NCBI RefSeq assembly: GCF_014230085.1 | Contig: NZ_JACHVB010000035.1 | Coordinates: 310,001-374,000, forward strand | From: Ruficoccus amylovorans | Lineage (GTDB): Bacteria; Verrucomicrobiota; Verrucomicrobiia; Opitutales; Cerasicoccaceae | DNA: 64,000 nt | Direction: 5' to 3' | Part shown: piece by piece, positions 22,104 through 30,715 of the stretch | How positions within the stretch are numbered: the stretch's first letter is position 1 | Layout of the letters: the number at the start of each line of letters is the position of its first letter | The notes under the pieces: model-generated | What the model saw: only the letters and a program-made list of their open reading frames with translations | Database searches by the model: none | What the model was told of the DNA's origin: nothing | Program-made: the position numbers and the translations under genes

Positions 22104-23165
22104 ATGATCGGAACAAGGAAAGAGCTCGAAGCGGATATCCTGCGGCTGTTGCGTAAAACGAGTACGGTTACCACGCCGTTGCCGACCACGCGCGAACTGG
22201 GGGAGCGTTTCAACCTTTCCCATGTTACGGTGGCCCGCGTGATGAAGCGGATGGTCGAGGAGAAGCTTTTATGGCAGAGCAAGGGAGGCCGCTTTTACAG
22301 TCCGGAGGCCGAGGCGCTGCTTGCGCGTCCGCAGCCCGTGGGTTGTCTTATCCGGGGCATTAACGCCTGGGCTTCCTGGTATCCGCACCTGATGGGGGGC
22401 GTGAGCGAGACCTGTGAGGCGAGCGGGCGGGGAATGCTCATTCATCCGGTTAATGTATTGCTCAAGCAGGAGCGTCCGGATGCGCGGCCTGACTATGCCA
22501 GCCCCAAGGAACAGCAGGCAGCCCTGCAGACTTATATGCGGGTGCATGCCAGCGAATGCGCGATTACGATTTTGGACGATTTATGGGACGATGAGGTCCT
22601 GGCGCGCTACGCACGTGAAATGCCGTCCCCGCGCATGCTGTTGCGATCCTGCGCGGTGGAAGGCGTGGAGTCGGCTTATCCAGACTACGAACAGGGGGCG
22701 TTGCTTGCCGTTTCTCATTTTCTTTCCCGCGGTTATGAAAAGGTCATCGTCGCCCGACCCTTCCGCGGTTATGGAACGGTGGACCAGATCGTGGACGCAT
22801 TTGAGAAGACCTCCAGCGTTCTCGGTGGTGGGGATACGGTCAAGGTGGTCGAACTCGACGGTAATCCGAAGAACCTGAGCTGGCTCAAGGCAATCGCTCG
22901 CTCGCATAAGCGGGTAGGGATCTTCTGCCCGGAAGACAATTTCGCGGTTGCGCTGCATGAGAACATTATCGCAGCCGGTTACCGGATACCGGAGGATGTT
23001 GGTATCCTGGCAGGGCTTGGGAGCGAAATGGTCTCGGATCGCGGTTTCAGTTCGCTATCGGTTAATTTCGAGCAGTTGGGAAGGCTGGCCGCCTCGGCGC
23101 ATCCCGGGCAGTTGCACGATCGCTCGCATCTCAGGCTCGAGCTGGTTATCGGTTCAACGACTTGA
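22104..23165 (+). CDS. Transcription regulator, GntR-type DNA-binding head with LacI-type sensor
   Basis: Predicted cytoplasmic sugar-responsive regulator of 353 residues. Residues 1-75 form a GntR-like winged helix (LPTTRELGERFNLSHVTVAR, then VMKRMVEEKLL). From about residue 85 the chain looks like a LacI/periplasmic-binding-protein sensor (GVSETCEASGRGMLIHPVN, AISHFLSRGYEKV-like block, RIPEDVGILAGLGSE and LSVNFEQLGRLA). This hybrid is common among Verrucomicrobiota sugar regulators. It lies upstream of the catabolic operon at 24625-29918, with a HAD phosphatase between on the other strand, and probably senses that pathway's substrate. The link rests on position only. Confidence 0.85.
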   Translation: MIGTRKELEADILRLLRKTSTVTTPLPTTRELGERFNLSHVTVARVMKRMVEEKLLWQSKGGRFYSPEAEALLARPQPVGCLIRGINAWASWYPHLMGGVSETCEASGRGMLIHPVNVLLKQERPDARPDYASPKEQQAALQTYMRVHASECAITILDDLWDDEVLARYAREMPSPRMLLRSCAVEGVESAYPDYEQGALLAVSHFLSRGYEKVIVARPFRGYGTVDQIVDAFEKTSSVLGGGDTVKVVELDGNPKNLSWLKAIARSHKRVGIFCPEDNFAVALHENIIAAGYRIPEDVGILAGLGSEMVSDRGFSSLSVNFEQLGRLAASAHPGQLHDRSHLRLELVIGSTT

Positions 23166-23238: not shown

Positions 23239-24102
23239 TCAGGTGGAGGCATGAGCGGCCAGAACCGCGTGCCGTTTCCTGCTCAGGGGACGCGGACTCT
23301 TTTTCTGCCGGACGGGCAGGGGCTCCTCGAAAACCTGCGGAAAGAGGTTCGGAAGGTCTGCAATGCTACCGATGATGTGGTTTGGCCGGTAGGAGTAATT
23401 GCGGACCTCTTCGGCCTTGGTGCCTCCGGAGAGGACGAGCACAGTCTGGTAACCCATTTCCACGCCTCCGAGGATGTCGGTGTACATGGTGTCGCCGATC
23501 ATGACCGTCTGGCTGGTGGTCGTTTCCATCTGCTTGCGGGCCAGCCGCATCATGACGCTACTGGGCTTGCCGACGGAAAAGGCTTTGACGCCGGTGGCCT
23601 CCTCGATCAGCCGCACGATGGCCCCGCAGCCGGGACGGATGCTGTTTTCGATCGGGCAGTTGCTGTCGAGGTTGGTCGCGATGAGCTTGGCCCCGGCATG
23701 GACAAGCTGGGTTGCTTTTTCCAGGTTTTCGAAATTGATCACCCGGCCCTCGCCGACGACGACATAATCGGGATTATCCTCGGTGATCGAGTAGCCGTTG
23801 GTGTGAAGGGCGAGGTTGAGGCCGCCTTCGCCGATGACAAAGGCCGTTCCCTGTGGCTTCTGGGAAGCCAGGAAGCGTGCAGTGGCTATTGCGCAGGTGA
23901 AAATGTGTCGATCTTCGACCTGCATACCCATCTTCTTGAGTTTCAGGGCGACGTCGCGGCGTGTTTTCTGGCTGTTGTTGGTGATGAAGCAGAAAGGTAT
24001 GTTCTTTCTGACCAGATGATTGATGACATCGACGGCGCCATCAATGACCTGTGATCCCTTGTAGATCACTCCGTCCATATCGATGAGAAATCCTAGTTCC
24101 AT
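23239..24102 (-). CDS. HAD-superfamily phosphatase, NagD-like
   Basis: Predicted cytoplasmic phosphatase of 287 residues acting on a small phosphorylated sugar or nucleotide. Start is set at the ATG at 24102 because FLIDMDGVIYKG is the first HAD motif, with the nucleophile and acid/base Asp pair. The upstream open frame to 24240 is not family-like. Further motifs are CFITNNSQKTRRD (motif II Thr/Asn), SVGKPSS (motif III Lys) and GDTMYTDILGG (motif IV). The cap insertion between motifs II and III is of the NagD/class IIA type. In other bacteria nagD lies beside amino-sugar genes. Here it diverges from a NagB-like and PIG-L operon, which may be meaningful. The tail after residue 260 is basic and unusual. 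Confidence 0.87.
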   Translation of the reverse strand: MELGFLIDMDGVIYKGSQVIDGAVDVINHLVRKNIPFCFITNNSQKTRRDVALKLKKMGMQVEDRHIFTCAIATARFLASQKPQGTAFVIGEGGLNLALHTNGYSITEDNPDYVVVGEGRVINFENLEKATQLVHAGAKLIATNLDSNCPIENSIRPGCGAIVRLIEEATGVKAFSVGKPSSVMMRLARKQMETTTSQTVMIGDTMYTDILGGVEMGYQTVLVLSGGTKAEEVRNYSYRPNHIIGSIADLPNLFPQVFEEPLPVRQKKSPRPLSRKRHAVLAAHAST

Positions 24103-24624
24103 GACTGTCTTGCTAGTGTTGTTTTCGTTTATGTTAGTCGGGTAATGGATCCTGAGGATAACAAGGTGAGGACTAAAGTGTGCGTGCATGGCCATTCCGG
24201 GTGCCTGTATTTTTCGCACTTGTCGGTATTTTGCACACATTTCGCCTAGAGCAAAGTCTGTGCCTGAGTTAACAAAAACGTGTGTTATGCCCTTTCAGTC
24301 GCAGTCGTGGCTAAAATATATCTATCTGATTTTTAACATGATAGCTGGGTTTTTCAGGTTTTTGATTGGAAATATGCAAACGAAGGGTCTGGCAGGCGGC
24401 AGCTATCAAGTGTAAATTTATTTTTGTTTCTTAACATGAAAATATTGTTGCAGATGGGGTTGGCTAACGTAGCATGTTTAATCATCAGTCTTTTGGCTGA
24501 TGAACGGAAATTTAACGACTCTGCGGTGAGCCAATCGCCGGGCATCTGCCCTGTGGCGGAGTCATGGCGGATGGCTGGGCATCCGATGGGAACGCGCAGG
24601 AGTATCACTAGAGCAAGTCATTCT
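24103..24624. promoter_or_regulatory. Long divergent intergenic region before the amino-sugar-like operon
   Basis: This 522-bp AT-rich gap lies between the HAD phosphatase and the deacetylase gene and should hold promoters for both. It contains GTTAAC at 24268-24273, two TTAACATG tracts (near 24333 and 24434), and an inverted pair GATAGCTG (24340-24347) and CAGCTATC (24400-24407). An in-frame extension of the deacetylase to 24424 has no family similarity, so 24424-24624 is more likely leader. I see no other gene. Confidence 0.4.
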
Positions 24625-25437
24625 ATGCAGGAAGAAAGCACCATCAAGGCGCTCGCCATGTTCGCCCATCCGGACGACATTGAGTTTTCGTGTGCGGGAA
24701 CGCTCGCGATGTTGCACAGCCGTGGCGTTGAGACACATTACCTGACGCTCGCCAACGGCTGTTGTGGAAGCATGGTCGAAGACCGGGAACAGACAGCTCG
24801 CCGCCGCTGGAATGAAAACCTGTCCGCCGCCAAGGTACTTGGGGCTGTTGCCCATCCGCCTCTGTTTGATGACCTGGACATTTTTTACGGGCGCGAAAGT
24901 GCTCAGCGGGTCAGTGCTGTTGTCCGCCGCATTCGCCCGGATATTATCCTGACGCACGCGGTTGAGGACTACATGGAGGACCATATGGAGACGGCTCGAC
25001 TGGCGTTGCATGCGGCCTTTACGGCGTCGATGCCCAACTATGTTACCGAACCCTCCGTCCCGCCGGTAGCGGGTAGTTGTGCGCTCTACCACGCGCTGCC
25101 GCACGGGCTTCGAAGCCCACGTGACGGCACGCGGGCTTATCCTTCTTTCTATATCGATATCAGTGAGGCTCTGTCGTTAAAGCGCGAAGCGCTTGCCTGC
25201 CACGAGAGCCAGAAGCTCTGGCTGGATCAGACGCAGGGAATGGACGCTTATCTGGAGGAGATGGAGCGCATGGCGCTGGAGCAGGGGAGCGACACCGGAT
25301 GCTTTAAGTTCGCTGAAGGTTTTACCCGGCATTCTTCGCTTGGGCTTTCCGCCGAGAGCTACCGCCCGCTGGAAGAAGTGCTGGCGGGTGCGCTTTGGCT
25401 CAACAAAAACTACCCGCAGTCACCTCGGGGTAGCTAA
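24625..25437 (+). CDS. PIG-L/LmbE-family deacetylase
   Basis: Predicted zinc-dependent N-deacetylase of 270 residues, acting in the cytoplasm on an N-acetylated sugar or cyclitol. Start is set at 24625, just before the family's first strand and the AHPDD motif (residues 14-18), whose His and Asp bind zinc and act in catalysis. A further ligand His lies in EDHMETARLALH. Relatives include LmbE, MshB, BshB and chitooligosaccharide deacetylases. It begins a five-gene operon; the NagB-like gene starts 19 bp after its stop. PIG-L followed by NagB-like suggests that deacetylation exposes an amine the next enzyme removes. Substrate is unknown, and bacillithiol-type roles are not favoured by context. 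Confidence 0.88.
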   Translation: MQEESTIKALAMFAHPDDIEFSCAGTLAMLHSRGVETHYLTLANGCCGSMVEDREQTARRRWNENLSAAKVLGAVAHPPLFDDLDIFYGRESAQRVSAVVRRIRPDIILTHAVEDYMEDHMETARLALHAAFTASMPNYVTEPSVPPVAGSCALYHALPHGLRSPRDGTRAYPSFYIDISEALSLKREALACHESQKLWLDQTQGMDAYLEEMERMALEQGSDTGCFKFAEGFTRHSSLGLSAESYRPLEEVLAGALWLNKNYPQSPRGS

Positions 25438-25456
25438 CCGCAAATAACCAATCACT

Positions 25457-26392
25457 ATGTCACGACCGATTAGCAAGTTGGCTCCCGCCTGGTGGGACTA
25501 TACGACACTGGACCCTGCGATCCTGAACGACGCTGCCCGGCTCAGCGCCAGGGACCTGACCCAACTCTCCCGGCCTGGGTTCTCGGTACGGATCTATGAT
25601 ACGCCGCAGGAGTTTTACGCGGCGCAGGCACTGGAGTACCTGGAGGCCTGGCGTGAATCCACTCCGGATAATCCGGTGGGCATCTGCGGCCCGATCGGGC
25701 CGACCGAACATCTTCCGTTGGTGGCTCAGATGGTGAACGCGATGAGGTTCGACTTGGGCAGGCACGAGGCGCATTTCTGGGGGATGGACGAATGGCTGAT
25801 TGATGGTGAAACCGTCAGCCCAAAGCATCCGCTTTCCTTTGCGCGCTGCGACAACGAGCTGTGCTTTGACCGTATCGAGTCAGCGCTCGCCATGCCCGAG
25901 GCCAACAAGCATTTTCCGACGGGTGACCTTGAAGCCTACAGTGCGAGCTATGACACGGTGCGTTGCGCGATCATGCAGGGCGGCCAGGGCGAGGTGAAGC
26001 ACTGGGCATTCAATGACCCGCTGATGCGCGAAGGCGCATATACCGATGTGCCGCCCACGCCGGATGAATATCGTTCGCTGGGCACGCGCAGAGTAAAACT
26101 TCACCCCGTTACTGTCATGCAAAATGCCCGTACGAGCGGCGGAGGTAACGTAAGCATGGTGCCGACGGAAGCCGTTACGGTGGGGCCGCGGGAGACCTGG
26201 AAGGCTGATTGCGTGTCGATCTGGCATCCCGGCCACCACGACAATCCCTTCGGTATTCGTCTTACCGCTTTCATGATTGCCAACAGCATCATGGACACGG
26301 CGGTACCGATGTCTCTGCTGGCGGATCATCCCAATGTGCGTTTCAGTTATCTGAGATCGGGAATCGGAGAGGTCGCGGTCGAAATGCACTGA
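25457..26392 (+). CDS. Divergent glucosamine-6-phosphate deaminase-like (NagB family) protein
   Basis: A 311-residue cytoplasmic protein of the NagB/RpiA/6-phosphogluconolactonase fold. The nucleotide-like loop is [13 protein letters not shown] (about 75-87). FWGMDEW (107-113) matches the NagB MDEY block with its catalytic Asp. The NagB active-site segment GVDGHIAFNEP is replaced by [11 protein letters not shown] (178-188). His182 is kept, the Glu is Asp187, and the Asp before GH becomes Val180 with Lys181 in place of Gly. So key residues are changed and the reaction may differ from GlcN-6-P deamination. Family members are usually 240-270 residues; this one is longer at both ends. It lies between a deacetylase and an oxidoreductase in one operon. 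Confidence 0.8.
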
Positions 26393-26413
26393 GATTTGCG
26401 TGTCCGGAAGCTC

Positions 26414-27628
26414 ATGAACAAACGAAAGGCGGATGAAGTGAAACCGGTCGAGGTGCTGATCGTAGGGATTGGCGGCTATGGGATGAGGTACCTTGAGGCG
26501 GTCAGGGAATACGCCCATAAGGGTATGGCGCGTTTGGTGGCGGTTGTTGATCCGTGCCCGGAAAATTGCCCCGCCTGGGAGCGGATCAAGGCTGAAAGTG
26601 TGCCGCATTTCTCGACGCTGGAGGATTACCTTGCCAGTGGCAGCCGTGCGGATTTGGCGGCGATTTCTTCACCCATCGCATTTCATGCGCATCAAGCTTG
26701 CCTGGCCCTGGAGGCGGGAATGAATGTGCTGTGTGAGAAACCGATTTGCGCGACGATGGACGAGGCTCGGCGGATGATCGCGCATCGCGATTCCAGCGGA
26801 AGGTTTCTCGAAATCGGATACCAATGGGTGTTCAGCCAAGCTGTGCAGGAGCTAAAAAGCGATGCGCTGGCGGGCTTGCTGGGGGCGCCTCGACGTTTTC
26901 TCACGCGCGTGGCCTGGCCGCGCGGAAGTGCTTACTACGGGCGCAATAACTGGGCCGGGGCAGTCCGCGATGCCGCCGGGCGGGTAGTTTATGACAGCCC
27001 GGTCAATAACGCGACCGCTCATCATCTGCATGCCATGCTTTACATCGCGGGCCTTGAGTCCAGCGCCGCTGCGAGACCGACAGCCGTTACAGCGGAGTGT
27101 TACCGTGCGAACAAGATTGAGAATTTCGATGCTGCCTGTTGCCGTATTGAAACGCGCGAGGGGGTGGAGATTCTGTTTTATTCGGCGCATTGTGTAGAGG
27201 AGTATTCCGGTCCGCTCATGCGCTACGAATATGAGAATGCGGTGGTTGAGTTTACGATGGAGGGCGGCATGGTTGCCCGCTTTGGTGATGGTGCCGTAAA
27301 AGCCTATGGCTCGCCCATCGATGATCCGATGCGCAAAATGCGTCACTGTATCCAGCGCTGTCGAGATGGAGGCAAGGGTGCTGCTGTTTGCCCGCCTGAG
27401 GCTGCTGCCGCCCACACTCTCTGCGTTGAGGGGATCCAGCATATGCCCGTGCAGGAGTTTCCCCCCGATGAAATACGGGAGAAGGAAACTGAGCCGGGGA
27501 ACCGTCTCGTCTATATGCCGGGGCTTGCGACTGCTATGGAAATCTGTTTTGAGCGCGGTGTGCTTTTTTCCGAATTTGATCAACCTCCCCTGACCTGGAC
27601 AGTCCGGGCGAGGCGAGTCGAATTATAA
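26414..27628 (+). CDS. Gfo/Idh/MocA-family oxidoreductase
   Basis: Predicted NAD(P)-dependent sugar or cyclitol dehydrogenase of 404 residues. The Rossmann domain shows VLIVGIGGYGMRYLEAV near the N-terminus, VAVVDPCPE after the second strand, and NVLCEKPICATMDEA, the EKP motif whose Lys takes part in catalysis. The C-terminal alpha/beta domain begins near residue 135. I took the ATG at 26414; a TTG at 26396 in the same frame is possible. It follows the NagB-like gene by 21 bp and precedes the aldolase-like gene by 42 bp. In such a pathway it would oxidise a ring or side-chain hydroxyl, possibly to help amine or carboxyl elimination, which is inferred. Confidence 0.87.
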   Translation: MNKRKADEVKPVEVLIVGIGGYGMRYLEAVREYAHKGMARLVAVVDPCPENCPAWERIKAESVPHFSTLEDYLASGSRADLAAISSPIAFHAHQACLALEAGMNVLCEKPICATMDEARRMIAHRDSSGRFLEIGYQWVFSQAVQELKSDALAGLLGAPRRFLTRVAWPRGSAYYGRNNWAGAVRDAAGRVVYDSPVNNATAHHLHAMLYIAGLESSAAARPTAVTAECYRANKIENFDAACCRIETREGVEILFYSAHCVEEYSGPLMRYEYENAVVEFTMEGGMVARFGDGAVKAYGSPIDDPMRKMRHCIQRCRDGGKGAAVCPPEAAAAHTLCVEGIQHMPVQEFPPDEIREKETEPGNRLVYMPGLATAMEICFERGVLFSEFDQPPLTWTVRARRVEL

Positions 27629-27670
27629 GAGCCCCGGCTTCCGTTTCTAACCTTCAACTGATCTAATTCT

Positions 27671-28723
27671 ATGTTTTTCAGAAAAAGCCTGGACCAGAAA
27701 CTTGCCCGCATTCATGCGGGGACGGCGACTCGCAGTGACTTTATTATAGCCGATGCTAAAGATGCGGACATGGCCTTTGGGGTGATGGCTCCGGGGCCTA
27801 ACCGGGCAGGAACCTGTCCTCACGGCTACGACCGGAGGCAGGGCTGCTATAAGACGCTGACTGACTACCTGGCCCAGATTCGCGAGGTGATCAATCAGCG
27901 GCTGGTGGACATCATGCTTTTGTCCGCCTCCAATCTTGAGCGGCTGGCGATTGACGAGGGAGTGTTCAGGAATTCCCCGATCACCCCGGCGGCCCGCGCA
28001 AATGATACCACTGATGTATGGGCGGTGCGTGAGGGGCACTACCCCAAGGAGCCGTCGCGCCACTTCCGTACTGCGACTCTGGACCACATCAAGTATGGCA
28101 AGCTTGAGACCAACTACCATAAGCCCCCGGCCGGTGCGGACCTGGGGTTGTATTCGATCACATTCACGAATAATCTGGATTGGGATTATACGGCTCTGGA
28201 GGCGTTTCATAACTTCCGTCTCGAAGCAGAGCGAAAGCACTTCCGCTACTTTCTGGAAGTTTTTAACCCGAACGTAGATCCGGGCTTCGATCCGAAAGAG
28301 GTCGGTGGCTTCCTTAATGACAACATCATCCGCTGCCTCGCAGGTGTGACACGCGTGGGGCGTCCGGTCTTTCTCAAAATCCCTTACAACGGCCCGGGGC
28401 CGCTGGAGGAACTGGTTTCTTACGACAGCAGTCTCGTCGTGGGCATCCTCGGTGGAAGTGCAGGTACTACGCTCGATGCTTTTCAGTTGATTCATGACGC
28501 GCAAAAGTATGGTGCGAAGGTGGCATTGTTTGGGCGTAAGATCAACCTCTCGGAGCATCCTCTGGCTTTCATTGAGTACCTCCGGCGTATTACTGACGGG
28601 GAGGTCGATCCACGTGAAGCCGTCAAGGCTTACCACGGTCATTTGCAGCGGAGCGGTATTTCCCCGGCACGCAGCCTGCAGGACGATCTCGTGCTCACGG
28701 ACGCCAAGATGAGCTATTCCTGA
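27671..28723 (+). CDS. TIM-barrel protein resembling class I aldolases
   Basis: A 350-residue cytoplasmic protein I cannot place in a named family. It shows a regular beta/alpha pattern. Strands such as LVDIMLLSA, YFLEVFNP and VVGILGGSAG are visible, and the last glycine-rich strand resembles the phosphate-binding end of aldolase barrels. PVFLKIPYNGPG (Lys about 236) resembles the Schiff-base Lys strand of class I aldolases such as the DeoC/FbaB/LacD group. KVALFGRKINLSEHPLAF follows. It lies between a dehydrogenase and a PfkB kinase, the order expected for a kinase/aldolase pair that splits a sugar phosphate, as IolC and IolJ do. A role in aldol cleavage is an inference from fold and context. 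Confidence 0.6.
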   Translation: MFFRKSLDQKLARIHAGTATRSDFIIADAKDADMAFGVMAPGPNRAGTCPHGYDRRQGCYKTLTDYLAQIREVINQRLVDIMLLSASNLERLAIDEGVFRNSPITPAARANDTTDVWAVREGHYPKEPSRHFRTATLDHIKYGKLETNYHKPPAGADLGLYSITFTNNLDWDYTALEAFHNFRLEAERKHFRYFLEVFNPNVDPGFDPKEVGGFLNDNIIRCLAGVTRVGRPVFLKIPYNGPGPLEELVSYDSSLVVGILGGSAGTTLDAFQLIHDAQKYGAKVALFGRKINLSEHPLAFIEYLRRITDGEVDPREAVKAYHGHLQRSGISPARSLQDDLVLTDAKMSYS

Positions 28724-28817
28724 CCATGCTATTTATGGGTGCTTTCCATGAGGCTCTTGCGAGTGGAGTCAAACAGGATTGGGCCCGGAAAGGCCGAACA
28801 GTAAGCAAACAACGGTT

Positions 28818-29918
28818 ATGAACTCTGGTGAACTAGCGCAGCTACTTAACGAGAACCGCGCGCGCATCAGTGGGTGCAGGGCGGTCACCGGCTTTGATGC
28901 CTTCGTGGATGAAATGATCTCCGTGGTCGATGAGCGTCATCACTTGGAAGCCTACCGGCGTGTAGAAACCATTTCGCAATTCGGCGAGTTAATCAAGTCG
29001 GCCGCCGGGCACAGCAGCCTGCGTGAGATTGTGGTCAACCGCAGGGAACCGGGCGGATGCGCGATTAACATGGGGGATGGGCTGGCGGCATTCGGGGTGC
29101 GTGTGGACACGTTCGCCACGGCAGGTGAGCCCTGCGACGATGCGTTCGCCGCCTATGCAGGGCAGGCTTCGTTGCATTCCTGGGGCCGCGAGCCGGGGCG
29201 CACACTTGCCTTCGAGTTCGCCGACGGAAAGCTGATGTTTTCCGCCGTTACGCCTTTGTCGGACTTTACCCCGGAGTACGTCGCCGGGAGGCTGGCCGAT
29301 GGAAGCTTCCGGCTGGCCTGTGAAAGAGCTGGCGTCATCGCACTGACCGATTGGTCGCTCTATCCGCACATGACGGAATGCTGGCGTCTCTTGCAGCAAG
29401 AAGTGTTCAAGCACTTGTCCGCTCGTCCGCGATTTTTTATCGATCTGGTCGATCCTTCAAGCCGCTCTGAGGCGGACATCGGTAGTATGATCGAGGCGCT
29501 TCCGGGCTTTGAAAACTGTGGGCCGATCACGTTGGGGTTGAACCAGAACGAGGCGAACATCCTGTCCCGAATCACAGGTGGCGAGGCTCTGGCGGAACCG
29601 GGGATTGCCGAAACCGCTTCGCAGGCTGCCGTGTTGCGCCGTGCATTAAAGATAGATGAAGTGGTTATCCACGCGCATAAATACGCCGTAGCGGCCAACG
29701 CTTCCGGCGTCCATGCGGGGGAGGGACGCTTTTGTGAGAAACCAGCGAAATCGACGGGCGCAGGCGACCGCTTCAACGCCGGTTACGCCTTGGGCTTGCT
29801 GCTGGAGTTACCGCCGCAGGAGTGTGTGGCGCTTGGGACGGCGTCTTCCGGTTTGTATGTGAGGCTTGGTCGGAGTGCCACCCTTTCCGAACTGATAGAT
29901 TTTCTGACGACGAGTTGA
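28818..29918 (+). CDS. PfkB-family carbohydrate kinase
   Basis: Predicted ATP-dependent kinase of 366 residues that phosphorylates a sugar or keto-acid intermediate. Start is set at ATG 28818. The PfkB signature 1 region is PGGCAINMGDGLAAFGV and signature 2 is STGAGDRFNAGYALG, with the catalytic Asp in GAGD and its anion hole. It is last in the operon that begins at 24625, about 94 bp after the aldolase-like gene. Members act on fructose, ribose, 2-keto-3-deoxygluconate, tagatose-6-phosphate or 5-dehydro-2-deoxygluconate. Pairing with an aldolase-like protein favours making the aldolase substrate. Confidence 0.88.
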   Translation: MNSGELAQLLNENRARISGCRAVTGFDAFVDEMISVVDERHHLEAYRRVETISQFGELIKSAAGHSSLREIVVNRREPGGCAINMGDGLAAFGVRVDTFATAGEPCDDAFAAYAGQASLHSWGREPGRTLAFEFADGKLMFSAVTPLSDFTPEYVAGRLADGSFRLACERAGVIALTDWSLYPHMTECWRLLQQEVFKHLSARPRFFIDLVDPSSRSEADIGSMIEALPGFENCGPITLGLNQNEANILSRITGGEALAEPGIAETASQAAVLRRALKIDEVVIHAHKYAVAANASGVHAGEGRFCEKPAKSTGAGDRFNAGYALGLLLELPPQECVALGTASSGLYVRLGRSATLSELIDFLTTS

Positions 29919-30007: not shown

Positions 30008-30715
30008 TTATTCTGTGGCCAGTCGCAAGGTGTCCCACTCGTGGCGACGGTGGTAGCTGGCCTTGGTCAGGGGAGCGGTGGATGACAGCGTCGCCTTGTC
30101 CTTGTTATGGGTGGCATCGTAGCGGCAGACGGCGATTTCAAGTGCGTATTCGCTTTGACCGTCAGGCAGGCCCAGTGAACTCCACGGAATAAAAGCCTGT
30201 ATGTGCCAGCGGTTGTTTGCAGAGTCGATCTGGGTCTGACTTTGCATAAAGCCCATGTCCTCCACGAAGAAATCGCTGAATGGGCGGTCGCCTTGACGAT
30301 ACGCTTTAAACCCGGCTGGGTCCCAGGCCAGTTGCAGCCGCTGATTACCGGGCGTGATATGGAGTTCCCAATAGCGGGCGCTCCCCGGGACTGCGACGAA
30401 GATCTCCACCACGTCGCCCAGCTCCCAGGTACGCTGATTGGGGCGGGTTGCTTCGTTGTGGATATCTTTGTCCTCAAGGGTTATGTTGAGGGTGAGTCCC
30501 ATTTGGTCGGAATGGAGCATTACCTGCCCGTCAGTGAAATCATCGCTGGGGGTATCGAGCCAATGCTGGCGAAAGTTCAGTGTGTGCGAAGCCTGCTCCT
30601 GCGATGGCTGATGGTCCTCGGGGGTAGCTGGGCCAGTTGACTCAGGTATGGCGGGAGTATCGGGCATGCTTAGAAACGGAGCTAGTGTCAGAATGCAGTA
30701 AGCTGGAAAGGACAT
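30008..30715 (-). CDS. Exported CBM9-like carbohydrate-binding protein
   Basis: A 235-residue protein with a short hydrophobic N-terminus (MSFPAYCILTLAPFLSM), a Pro/Glu-rich spacer and, from about residue 45, a single domain like the CBM9 family found in sugar-binding and DOMON-type proteins. Telling blocks are DGQVMLHSDQMGLTLNITL, DVVEIFVAVPGSARYWELHI and WHIQAFIPWSSLGL. No catalytic domain is present. It is probably exported and may bind a glycan outside the cytoplasm. It diverges from the SGNH hydrolase across an AT-rich 110-bp gap that contains GTTAAC at 30751. Confidence 0.7.
   Translation of the reverse strand: MSFPAYCILTLAPFLSMPDTPAIPESTGPATPEDHQPSQEQASHTLNFRQHWLDTPSDDFTDGQVMLHSDQMGLTLNITLEDKDIHNEATRPNQRTWELGDVVEIFVAVPGSARYWELHITPGNQRLQLAWDPAGFKAYRQGDRPFSDFFVEDMGFMQSQTQIDSANNRWHIQAFIPWSSLGLPDGQSEYALEIAVCRYDATHNKDKATLSSTAPLTKASYHRRHEWDTLRLATE

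Follow-up and report, generated by a model that had tools for sequence, protein, structure and literature searches.

We analysed a 64,000-nucleotide stretch of the Ruficoccus amylovorans genome (contig NZ_JACHVB010000035.1, positions 310,001 to 374,000; hereafter the window, with positions counted from its first nucleotide), and report here on an operon of five genes at positions 24625–29918. The operon is real, partly conserved and composite: two modules—one of a PIG-L deacetylase gene and a gene for an unnamed NagB-like protein, the other of a TIM-barrel aldolase-fold gene (TIM) and a gene assigned to the ketohexokinases—are joined with a gene for a Gfo/Idh/MocA oxidoreductase (Gfo/Idh). All of the superfamilies are known; the combination is new, and it includes two unnamed families, that of the NagB-like protein and that of the aldolase-fold protein. 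Our leading, still tentative reading is that of a composite amino-sugar catabolic operon in which phosphorylation comes after deamination. The five genes are as follows.

24625–25437, + strand: PIG-L family deacetylase (PF02585), probable N-deacetylase, module 1
25457–26392, + strand: NagB-like protein of an unnamed family, profile matching NagB structures, module 1
26396–27628, + strand: Gfo/Idh/MocA oxidoreductase (PF01408, E 1.6e-17), accessory
27671–28723, + strand: TIM barrel with, by fold comparison, a class I (Schiff-base) dihydroxyacetone phosphate (DHAP)-aldolase fold, module 2
28779–29918, + strand: PfkB-superfamily ketohexokinase by family assignment (PF25270), with an ATG at 28818, module 2

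The tight packing of these genes on one strand, described in a first-pass annotation of this DNA, is borne out by the coordinates and by intergenic gaps of 19, 3, 42 and 55 bases in order from PIG-L to kinase; the PIG-L open reading frame (ORF) has an alternative upstream TTG start at 24424. The genome itself is a 4.5 Mb draft in 64 contigs.

The NagB-like, TIM and ketohexokinase genes were searched for in 288 sampled genomes of the phylum. The NagB-like family is present in 88 of these (full-length copies at least 59% identical, by our reading of the matches), with the gene in pieces in three of the 88 (G007, G216 and G269); matches at E ≤ 0.001 occur in 104 genomes, the non-family remainder being relatives of about 25–35% identity. 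Neighbourhoods were compared at 65 NagB-like loci—the window, four loci from the TIM search, and 60 genomes fetched from the 87 others with a strong NagB-like match—and since mostly the best-scoring genomes were fetched, the counts lean to closer relatives; gene calling was homology-guided, and locus counts depend on the calling and on contig ends. A PIG-L gene lies within three genes of the NagB-like gene in 53 of the 65 loci, and where both were called (54 loci) they share a strand within 200 bases in 48, in either gene order. Such pairing may extend outside the main family, because a distant NagB-like paralogue (L191:7528-9083, E 3e-19) overlaps a PIG-L ORF, with a Gfo/Idh gene nearby.

The second pairing is seen in genome content as well as in gene order. 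TIM is strongly matched (at least 49% identity) in 16 of the 288 genomes and at E ≤ 0.001 in 20; the ketohexokinase search matches 55 genomes, its subfamily of at least 43% identity is found in nine, and all nine also have TIM. At the TIM loci, which are the best 80 of at least 585 confirmed candidates, the genes found within three genes of TIM include a ketohexokinase (19 of 81 loci), an alternative PfkB kinase that we call c9 (14 of 81), and a D-lyxose/D-mannose isomerase (17 of 81; PF07385, E 6e-53 for one copy). The isomerase is within two genes in all 17, against 0 of 549 genes farther off, and enrichment within two genes of TIM is pronounced for all three (ketohexokinase p 3e-7, c9 p 4e-5, isomerase p 1e-8). 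Within four genes, the companions of the isomerase are a ketohexokinase in 10 loci, c9 in four and neither in three; the NagB-like gene accompanies it in none.

The two modules meet in few lineages. PIG-L, NagB-like, TIM and ketohexokinase form, in this order, a contiguous four-gene unit with no Gfo/Idh gene in two species, Cerasicoccus arenae (L039) and C. frondis (L040), and in L051 short PIG-L and NagB-like fragments adjoin TIM and a kinase gene that is cut by the contig end. At L117 the order is regulator, PIG-L, NagB-like and then a homologue of the window gene at 30008–30715, and TIM and kinase are adjacent on another contig of that genome; because L117 runs from NagB-like straight to this homologue, the Gfo/Idh–TIM–kinase block looks inserted in the window. 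The c9 kinase can also follow the NagB-like/PIG-L pair, immediately in L161, L162 and L170 and at a distance of some 640 bases in L150, and it occurs in a cluster with Gfo/Idh in L145 (within two genes of NagB-like, 5 of 242 genes against 2 of 472 farther off, p 0.048). Across the 288 genomes NagB-like and TIM co-occur in four, against 4.9 expected; since this is not above chance, the joining of the modules is lineage-specific, and the first-pass view of the five genes as one conserved unit gives way to one of separate modules.

The deacetylase is well placed in its family (PF02585, 83 bits against a gathering cut-off of 28.2, E 3e-23) and carries an HPDD motif at residues 15–18. No NagA-type family was matched among the eight proteins scanned in and around the operon; the deacetylase here is PIG-L.

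Conservation within the NagB-like family is high (a mean column identity of 74% in 24 sequences), yet the window copy is without a Pfam match at E ≤ 1, and none of its NCBIfam matches comes near a cut-off: it scores 16.2 bits (E 0.005) against the 236.9 required by TIGR00502 (nagB), and so falls outside that family. All 24 family members match TIGR00502 at E ≤ 1 (best E 3.6e-6), the family profile matches NagB structures (E 4.7e-6), and hhalign aligns it with Escherichia coli NagB at a probability of 94.8 (E 5e-8). Of the 88 carrier genomes, 87 (the exception being G059) also match TIGR00502, with best E-values of 1e-17 or better by our reading of the list; the NagB-like protein is therefore not simply the cell's glucosamine 6-phosphate (GlcN6P) deaminase, and a role as replacement for canonical NagB is rejected. 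Among these canonical nagB matches, those of 12 listed genomes of one genus (g28 of family f7, e.g. G021, G024, G027 and G033) contain one in-frame TAA each, where the match perhaps merely runs past the stop. A lactonase was also considered and rejected, as the motif AFNDP of the NagB-like protein resembles the AFNEP of NagB, from which the 6-phosphogluconolactonase motif presumably differs; one Haloarcula relative is annotated as a 6-phosphogluconolactonase.

Two sets of alignments were used to compare residues: one of 14 sequences (E. coli NagB, five canonical NagB proteins of the phylum and NagB-like relatives), and eight MAFFT alignments with all 24 family members under varied settings. 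Asp72, Glu73 and His143, which we take to be the catalytic residues of NagB, are identical in 14 of 14 sequences and kept in all eight MAFFT alignments. Glu148 is replaced by Asp in the NagB-like family and Asp141 is lost (8/8). In what we take to be the phosphate site—loop 41–44, Arg172 and Lys208—positions 43–44 of the loop are missing and no lysine stands at the Lys208 column (8/8 for both), and Arg172 is retained (8/8). The residue opposite Lys208 is Asp262 in five of the eight alignments, Ile267 in two and Asn263 in one; hhalign also places Asp262 there. The loop deletion recurs in a Vibrio NagB-like protein and in two that are encoded on a single Haloarcula plasmid, and Arg172 is absent from all three. 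Because the phosphate loop is two residues short and Lys208 is missing, phosphate recognition has probably been lost and the substrate of the NagB-like protein is probably unphosphorylated.

The kinase matches PF25270, 'prokaryotic ketohexokinase', at 162.5 bits (E 2e-47), far above the gathering cut-off of 35, and by family assignment it is a ketohexokinase. The parallel with inositol catabolism (IolG, IolC, IolJ) that had been drawn in the first-pass annotation extends to the Gfo/Idh and PfkB superfamilies and the presence of an aldolase; it fails on the kinase assignment and on the models themselves, since the oxidoreductase scores 50.7 of the 355 bits needed for IolG and the kinase 23 of 300 for IolC (NCBIfam cut-offs), and the aldolase fold here is class I and DhnA-like. 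A cyclitol substrate, also suggested there, is not supported.

TIM has no Pfam match at E ≤ 1, PF01791 included, and matches a DhnA-type aldolase NCBIfam model far under its cut-off (E 2e-4). An AlphaFold2 model (mean predicted local distance difference test, pLDDT, 83.5) was compared with known structures; the best match is ADH synthase with DHAP (Z 21.9), followed by LsrF and an archaeal fructose-bisphosphate aldolase (FBPA), and every one of the 50 rows shown (Z 21.9–18.9) is, by title or relation, an aldolase or a protein of aldolase fold, among them fructose-bisphosphate, tagatose-bisphosphate and sulfohexulose-1-phosphate aldolases. Lys236 is invariant in 46 of 46 TIM sequences and is aligned by hhalign to the lysine of a DhnA-type aldolase; at this position a HMMER alignment with LsrF is displaced by one residue. 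With ADH synthase, LsrF and archaeal FBPA (Z about 20.6–21.9), TIM shares the fold, the position of the Schiff-base lysine, and the GG and GR motifs, which we take to bind phosphate; it is, however, only 13–16% identical to them. On the predicted structure, TIM is a class I DHAP-aldolase fold protein in a family of its own, as the fold and the invariant lysine agree with the DhnA/LacD aldolases and PF01791 is not matched.

The named records closest to TIM are mostly from Verrucomicrobiota, and relatives are also found on rhizobial plasmids (47 records, of which the 20 listed are 53–56% identical). In all four rhizobial loci read TIM is followed by a c9-type kinase, and the two annotated ones adjoin a sugar ABC transporter, an FGGY kinase and a ROK regulator. 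On Shinella plasmids (L207:8992-11042 and L208:8992-11072) TIM, annotated as hypothetical, and the c9-type PfkB kinase overlap by four bases, with FGGY kinase, ROK regulator and sugar ABC transporter genes alongside.

From these results we infer the substrate, step order and products as follows. PIG-L would strip the N-acetyl group from an N-acetylhexosamine, N-acetylglucosamine (GlcNAc) and N-acetylgalactosamine (GalNAc) being the leading candidates; the NagB-like protein would act on the free hexosamine by isomerisation and deamination, to give ammonia and a ketohexose (fructose or tagatose); the ketohexokinase would convert the ketohexose to its 1-phosphate; and TIM, acting as a class I aldolase, would cleave this to DHAP and glyceraldehyde. 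Since the D-lyxose/D-mannose isomerase is the aldose-to-ketose enzyme at other TIM loci, the NagB-like protein would take the ketose-producing slot here. Where the sugar is modified or glycosidically bound, Gfo/Idh may convert that form. Of the earlier interpretation this keeps an amino-sugar-like operon whose likely steps are deacetylation, deamination or isomerisation, phosphorylation and aldol cleavage, and drops the conserved five-gene unit, the obligatory oxidation, the inositol parallel and NagD. More hesitantly, we suggest that it represents an undescribed route of Verrucomicrobiota and their relatives—deacetylation by PIG-L and deamination by a NagB-derived enzyme without its former phosphate site, both on unphosphorylated sugar, then cleavage of the ketohexose 1-phosphate by an aldolase that would belong to a new class I family—and that haloarchaea put together a parallel cluster.

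Several known systems resemble parts of this scheme. The NagA/NagB pathway likewise proceeds by deacetylation and then an isomerising deamination by a NagB-related enzyme; it differs in that PIG-L stands here for NagA, the phosphate site of the NagB relative is altered in the alignments, and the kinase would act after deamination. The PRK02122-type NagB-like protein, which we take to be a fusion of NagB with an LmbE/PIG-L domain, pairs the two domains that are neighbouring genes here, and its model is matched at E ≤ 1 by eight of the 24 family members (best E 0.0033). In the archaeal glucosamine (GlcN) route the later steps are carried out by GlmA, GlmD and an ADP-dependent kinase, unlike the NagB-like protein, ketohexokinase and TIM aldolase that would serve here. 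As in our scheme, a PIG-L-type enzyme deacetylates an unphosphorylated GlcNAc sugar in the Thermococcus chitobiose deacetylase route; that deacetylase belongs to COG2120 (PMC3102087).

The haloarchaeal khk-fruK-fbaB1 system (PMC11519228) has in common with the window a ketohexokinase of the haloarchaeal kind and a class I aldolase; it differs in having a 1-phosphofructokinase and in being fed by sugar-alcohol dehydrogenases. The haloarchaeal ketohexokinase is active on fructose and on none of six other sugars tested, its deletion almost abolishes growth on mannitol and sorbitol, and fructose 1-phosphorylation is assayed for these haloarchaeal relatives only (PMC11519228). On two Haloarcula plasmids (L176 and L177) we find a cluster of two NagB-like genes, a GlpR regulator, a ketohexokinase, an aldolase, Gfo/Idh and an ABC transporter; the ketohexokinase profile matches in both (PF25270, E 2e-137 in L176), DhnA-type models match the aldolase in L176, and the window kinase is 27% identical to a Haloarcula plasmid homologue within the same Pfam family. 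On a Vibrio nigripulchritudo plasmid a NagB-like gene (L178:8830-9726) lies amid genes for a nucleoside hydrolase, an adenosine deaminase, a ribokinase and a nucleoside transporter.

The first-pass annotation made oxidation by Gfo/Idh a step of its scheme. Gfo/Idh genes are moderately enriched within three genes of NagB-like (18 of 352 genes against 7 of 362 farther off, p 0.017; 16 of 65 loci), less clearly within two (p 0.10). Of 109 genes in operon-like neighbours of NagB-like, 107 passed the length filter, and 103 were left after removal of the four TIM and kinase genes of the two Cerasicoccus loci; PF01408 is found in 12 of these 103, against three of 103 genes drawn randomly from 431 eligible others (p 0.014), and the C-terminal family PF22725 in 11 against four. 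These p values are optimistic, as related loci were counted apart. The Gfo/Idh subfamilies near NagB-like differ between loci; for the window gene the closest relatives are 47–50% identical and come from other loci in the order, none close was found beside NagB-like among the matches listed from 51 other genomes of the order, and a plasmid search returned only relatives of less than 60% identity, none covering 80%. With its absence from the Cerasicoccus version, this speaks against an obligatory step, and we treat Gfo/Idh as accessory. DegT-type aminotransferases make up four of the operon-like neighbours of NagB-like. In L136, L144, L158 and L159 the NagB-like gene shares its operon with genes for a DegT aminotransferase, a Gfo/Idh protein and a third protein, also conserved, which has a sub-cut-off match to neutral ceramidase (E 1.3e-4).

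A number of observations weigh against the amino-sugar reading. On the side of module 1, Arg172, which we take to be a phosphate ligand, is kept; hhalign sets the two-residue gap immediately behind the loop, with Thr44 still in position; and the residue losses are read from sequence alignment, the structure model of the NagB-like protein having reached a pLDDT of 37 (four input sequences). The Haloarcula stretches read yielded no PIG-L, and the Vibrio copy sits in a nucleoside-salvage cluster and retains a lysine at column 208, so that proteins of this shape need not deaminate. No chitinase or hexosaminidase family is among the 25 listed of the 113 families of operon neighbours, and no glycosidase family among those listed points to where the sugar comes from. 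As for module 2, the Haloarcula hispanica ketohexokinase works with a 1-phosphofructokinase (PMC11519228), a gene that the window operon lacks, and the FGGY kinase beside TIM and PfkB on the two rhizobial plasmids would fit a bisphosphate substrate. The chance-level co-occurrence of the modules counts on the same side.

TIM is also found in the company of another aldolase. In two paralogue operons of the window genome (L197:3946-8715 and L198:7940-12536, on contigs C13 and C14) a protein of 504–560 amino acids, without a Pfam match in the copy scanned, is followed by a PfkB kinase, a PF01116 class II aldolase and TIM, so that two unlike aldolases are adjacent. Of 80 TIM loci, 26 carry genes for microcompartment shell proteins (PF00936 and PF03319 in the copies tested), and all 26 have the class II aldolase cluster. 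In these loci (within L073-L114) a longer TIM subfamily, median 430 amino acids, ends a microcompartment operon of the Planctomycetes/Verrucomicrobia type, with the class II aldolase or LDH gene at most two genes upstream of it (26/26); the shell, aldehyde dehydrogenase, acetate kinase and PduL families of this operon were confirmed with Pfam on single copies, and the accessible parts of PMC4207490 and PMC8857213 make no mention of the longer TIM. Because such operons already have a class II aldolase, the role of TIM, perhaps here too, may not be the main cleavage; it may be a second cleavage or something else.

That the NagB-like protein is a plain aldose–ketose isomerase, with PIG-L deacylating some conjugate, for example a sugar or glycoside with an N-acyl group, would agree with the Vibrio and Haloarcula clusters, in which no PIG-L was seen in the stretches read, and with the isomerase that occupies the slot in sister operons; we nevertheless consider it unlikely, as the proximity of PIG-L in 53 of 65 loci suggests that the NagB-like protein acts only once an amino group has been set free. 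About as unlikely, and combinable with the amino-sugar reading, is that a kinase encoded elsewhere makes a 1,6-bisphosphate from the 1-phosphate and that TIM cleaves the bisphosphate. The two kinases in the annotated rhizobial loci and the bisphosphate aldolases among the fold matches point this way; against it, neither the window operon nor L039 has a second kinase (in L040 a PfkB-like gene lies three genes after the ketohexokinase), and the sulfohexulose-1-phosphate aldolase among those matches gives cleavage of a 1-phosphate a precedent in this fold.

Two further explanations seem to us improbable. The five-step route of the first-pass annotation, on an N-acetylated aminocyclitol or a 3- or 4-amino sugar with obligatory oxidation, could draw on the Gfo/Idh enrichment, with its optimistic p values, and on the four DegT-type aminotransferases; it conflicts with the variation of Gfo/Idh types by locus, with their absence from the Cerasicoccus unit, and with a kinase that is a ketohexokinase rather than IolC-like. 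If rearrangement had merely gathered sugar genes into a loose string without a common substrate, this would account for the apparently inserted block and for a Gfo/Idh copy that is locus-specific among those compared; the four-gene unit with its order kept in both Cerasicoccus genomes, and the parallel archaeal cluster, argue against it.

Among the matches listed from the open-access literature (titles and abstract openings), neither this gene combination nor a NagB acting on an unphosphorylated substrate is described. If the NagB-like protein does deaminate unphosphorylated amino sugars, a textbook enzyme family would gain a new activity, and the picture of how Verrucomicrobiota break down amino-sugar-rich glycans would be enlarged.

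Three further genes flank the operon.

22104–23165, + strand: GntR/LacI-hybrid regulator (Peripla_BP_3, E 1.5e-10), probable operon regulator
23239–24240 (longest ORF), − strand: NagD-like HAD phosphatase, between regulator and PIG-L
30008–30715, − strand: conserved CBM9-like neighbour, at the 3′ boundary of the apparently inserted block

The NagD-like phosphatase noted earlier as lying just upstream is a real HAD gene and is not co-directional; it is ruled out as a member of the operon by its opposite strand, and no such gene lies between regulator and PIG-L in L117. The sugar-type regulator reported upstream is likewise real, combining Peripla_BP_3 with a GntR helix-turn-helix match just under the Pfam cut-off, and its homologue in L117 (35% identical over 351 amino acids) stands directly upstream of PIG-L and NagB-like. 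The protein of 30008–30715 scores 23.2 bits against the CBM9-like Pfam cut-off of 23.4, and it is its 46% identical homologue that adjoins NagB-like in L117.

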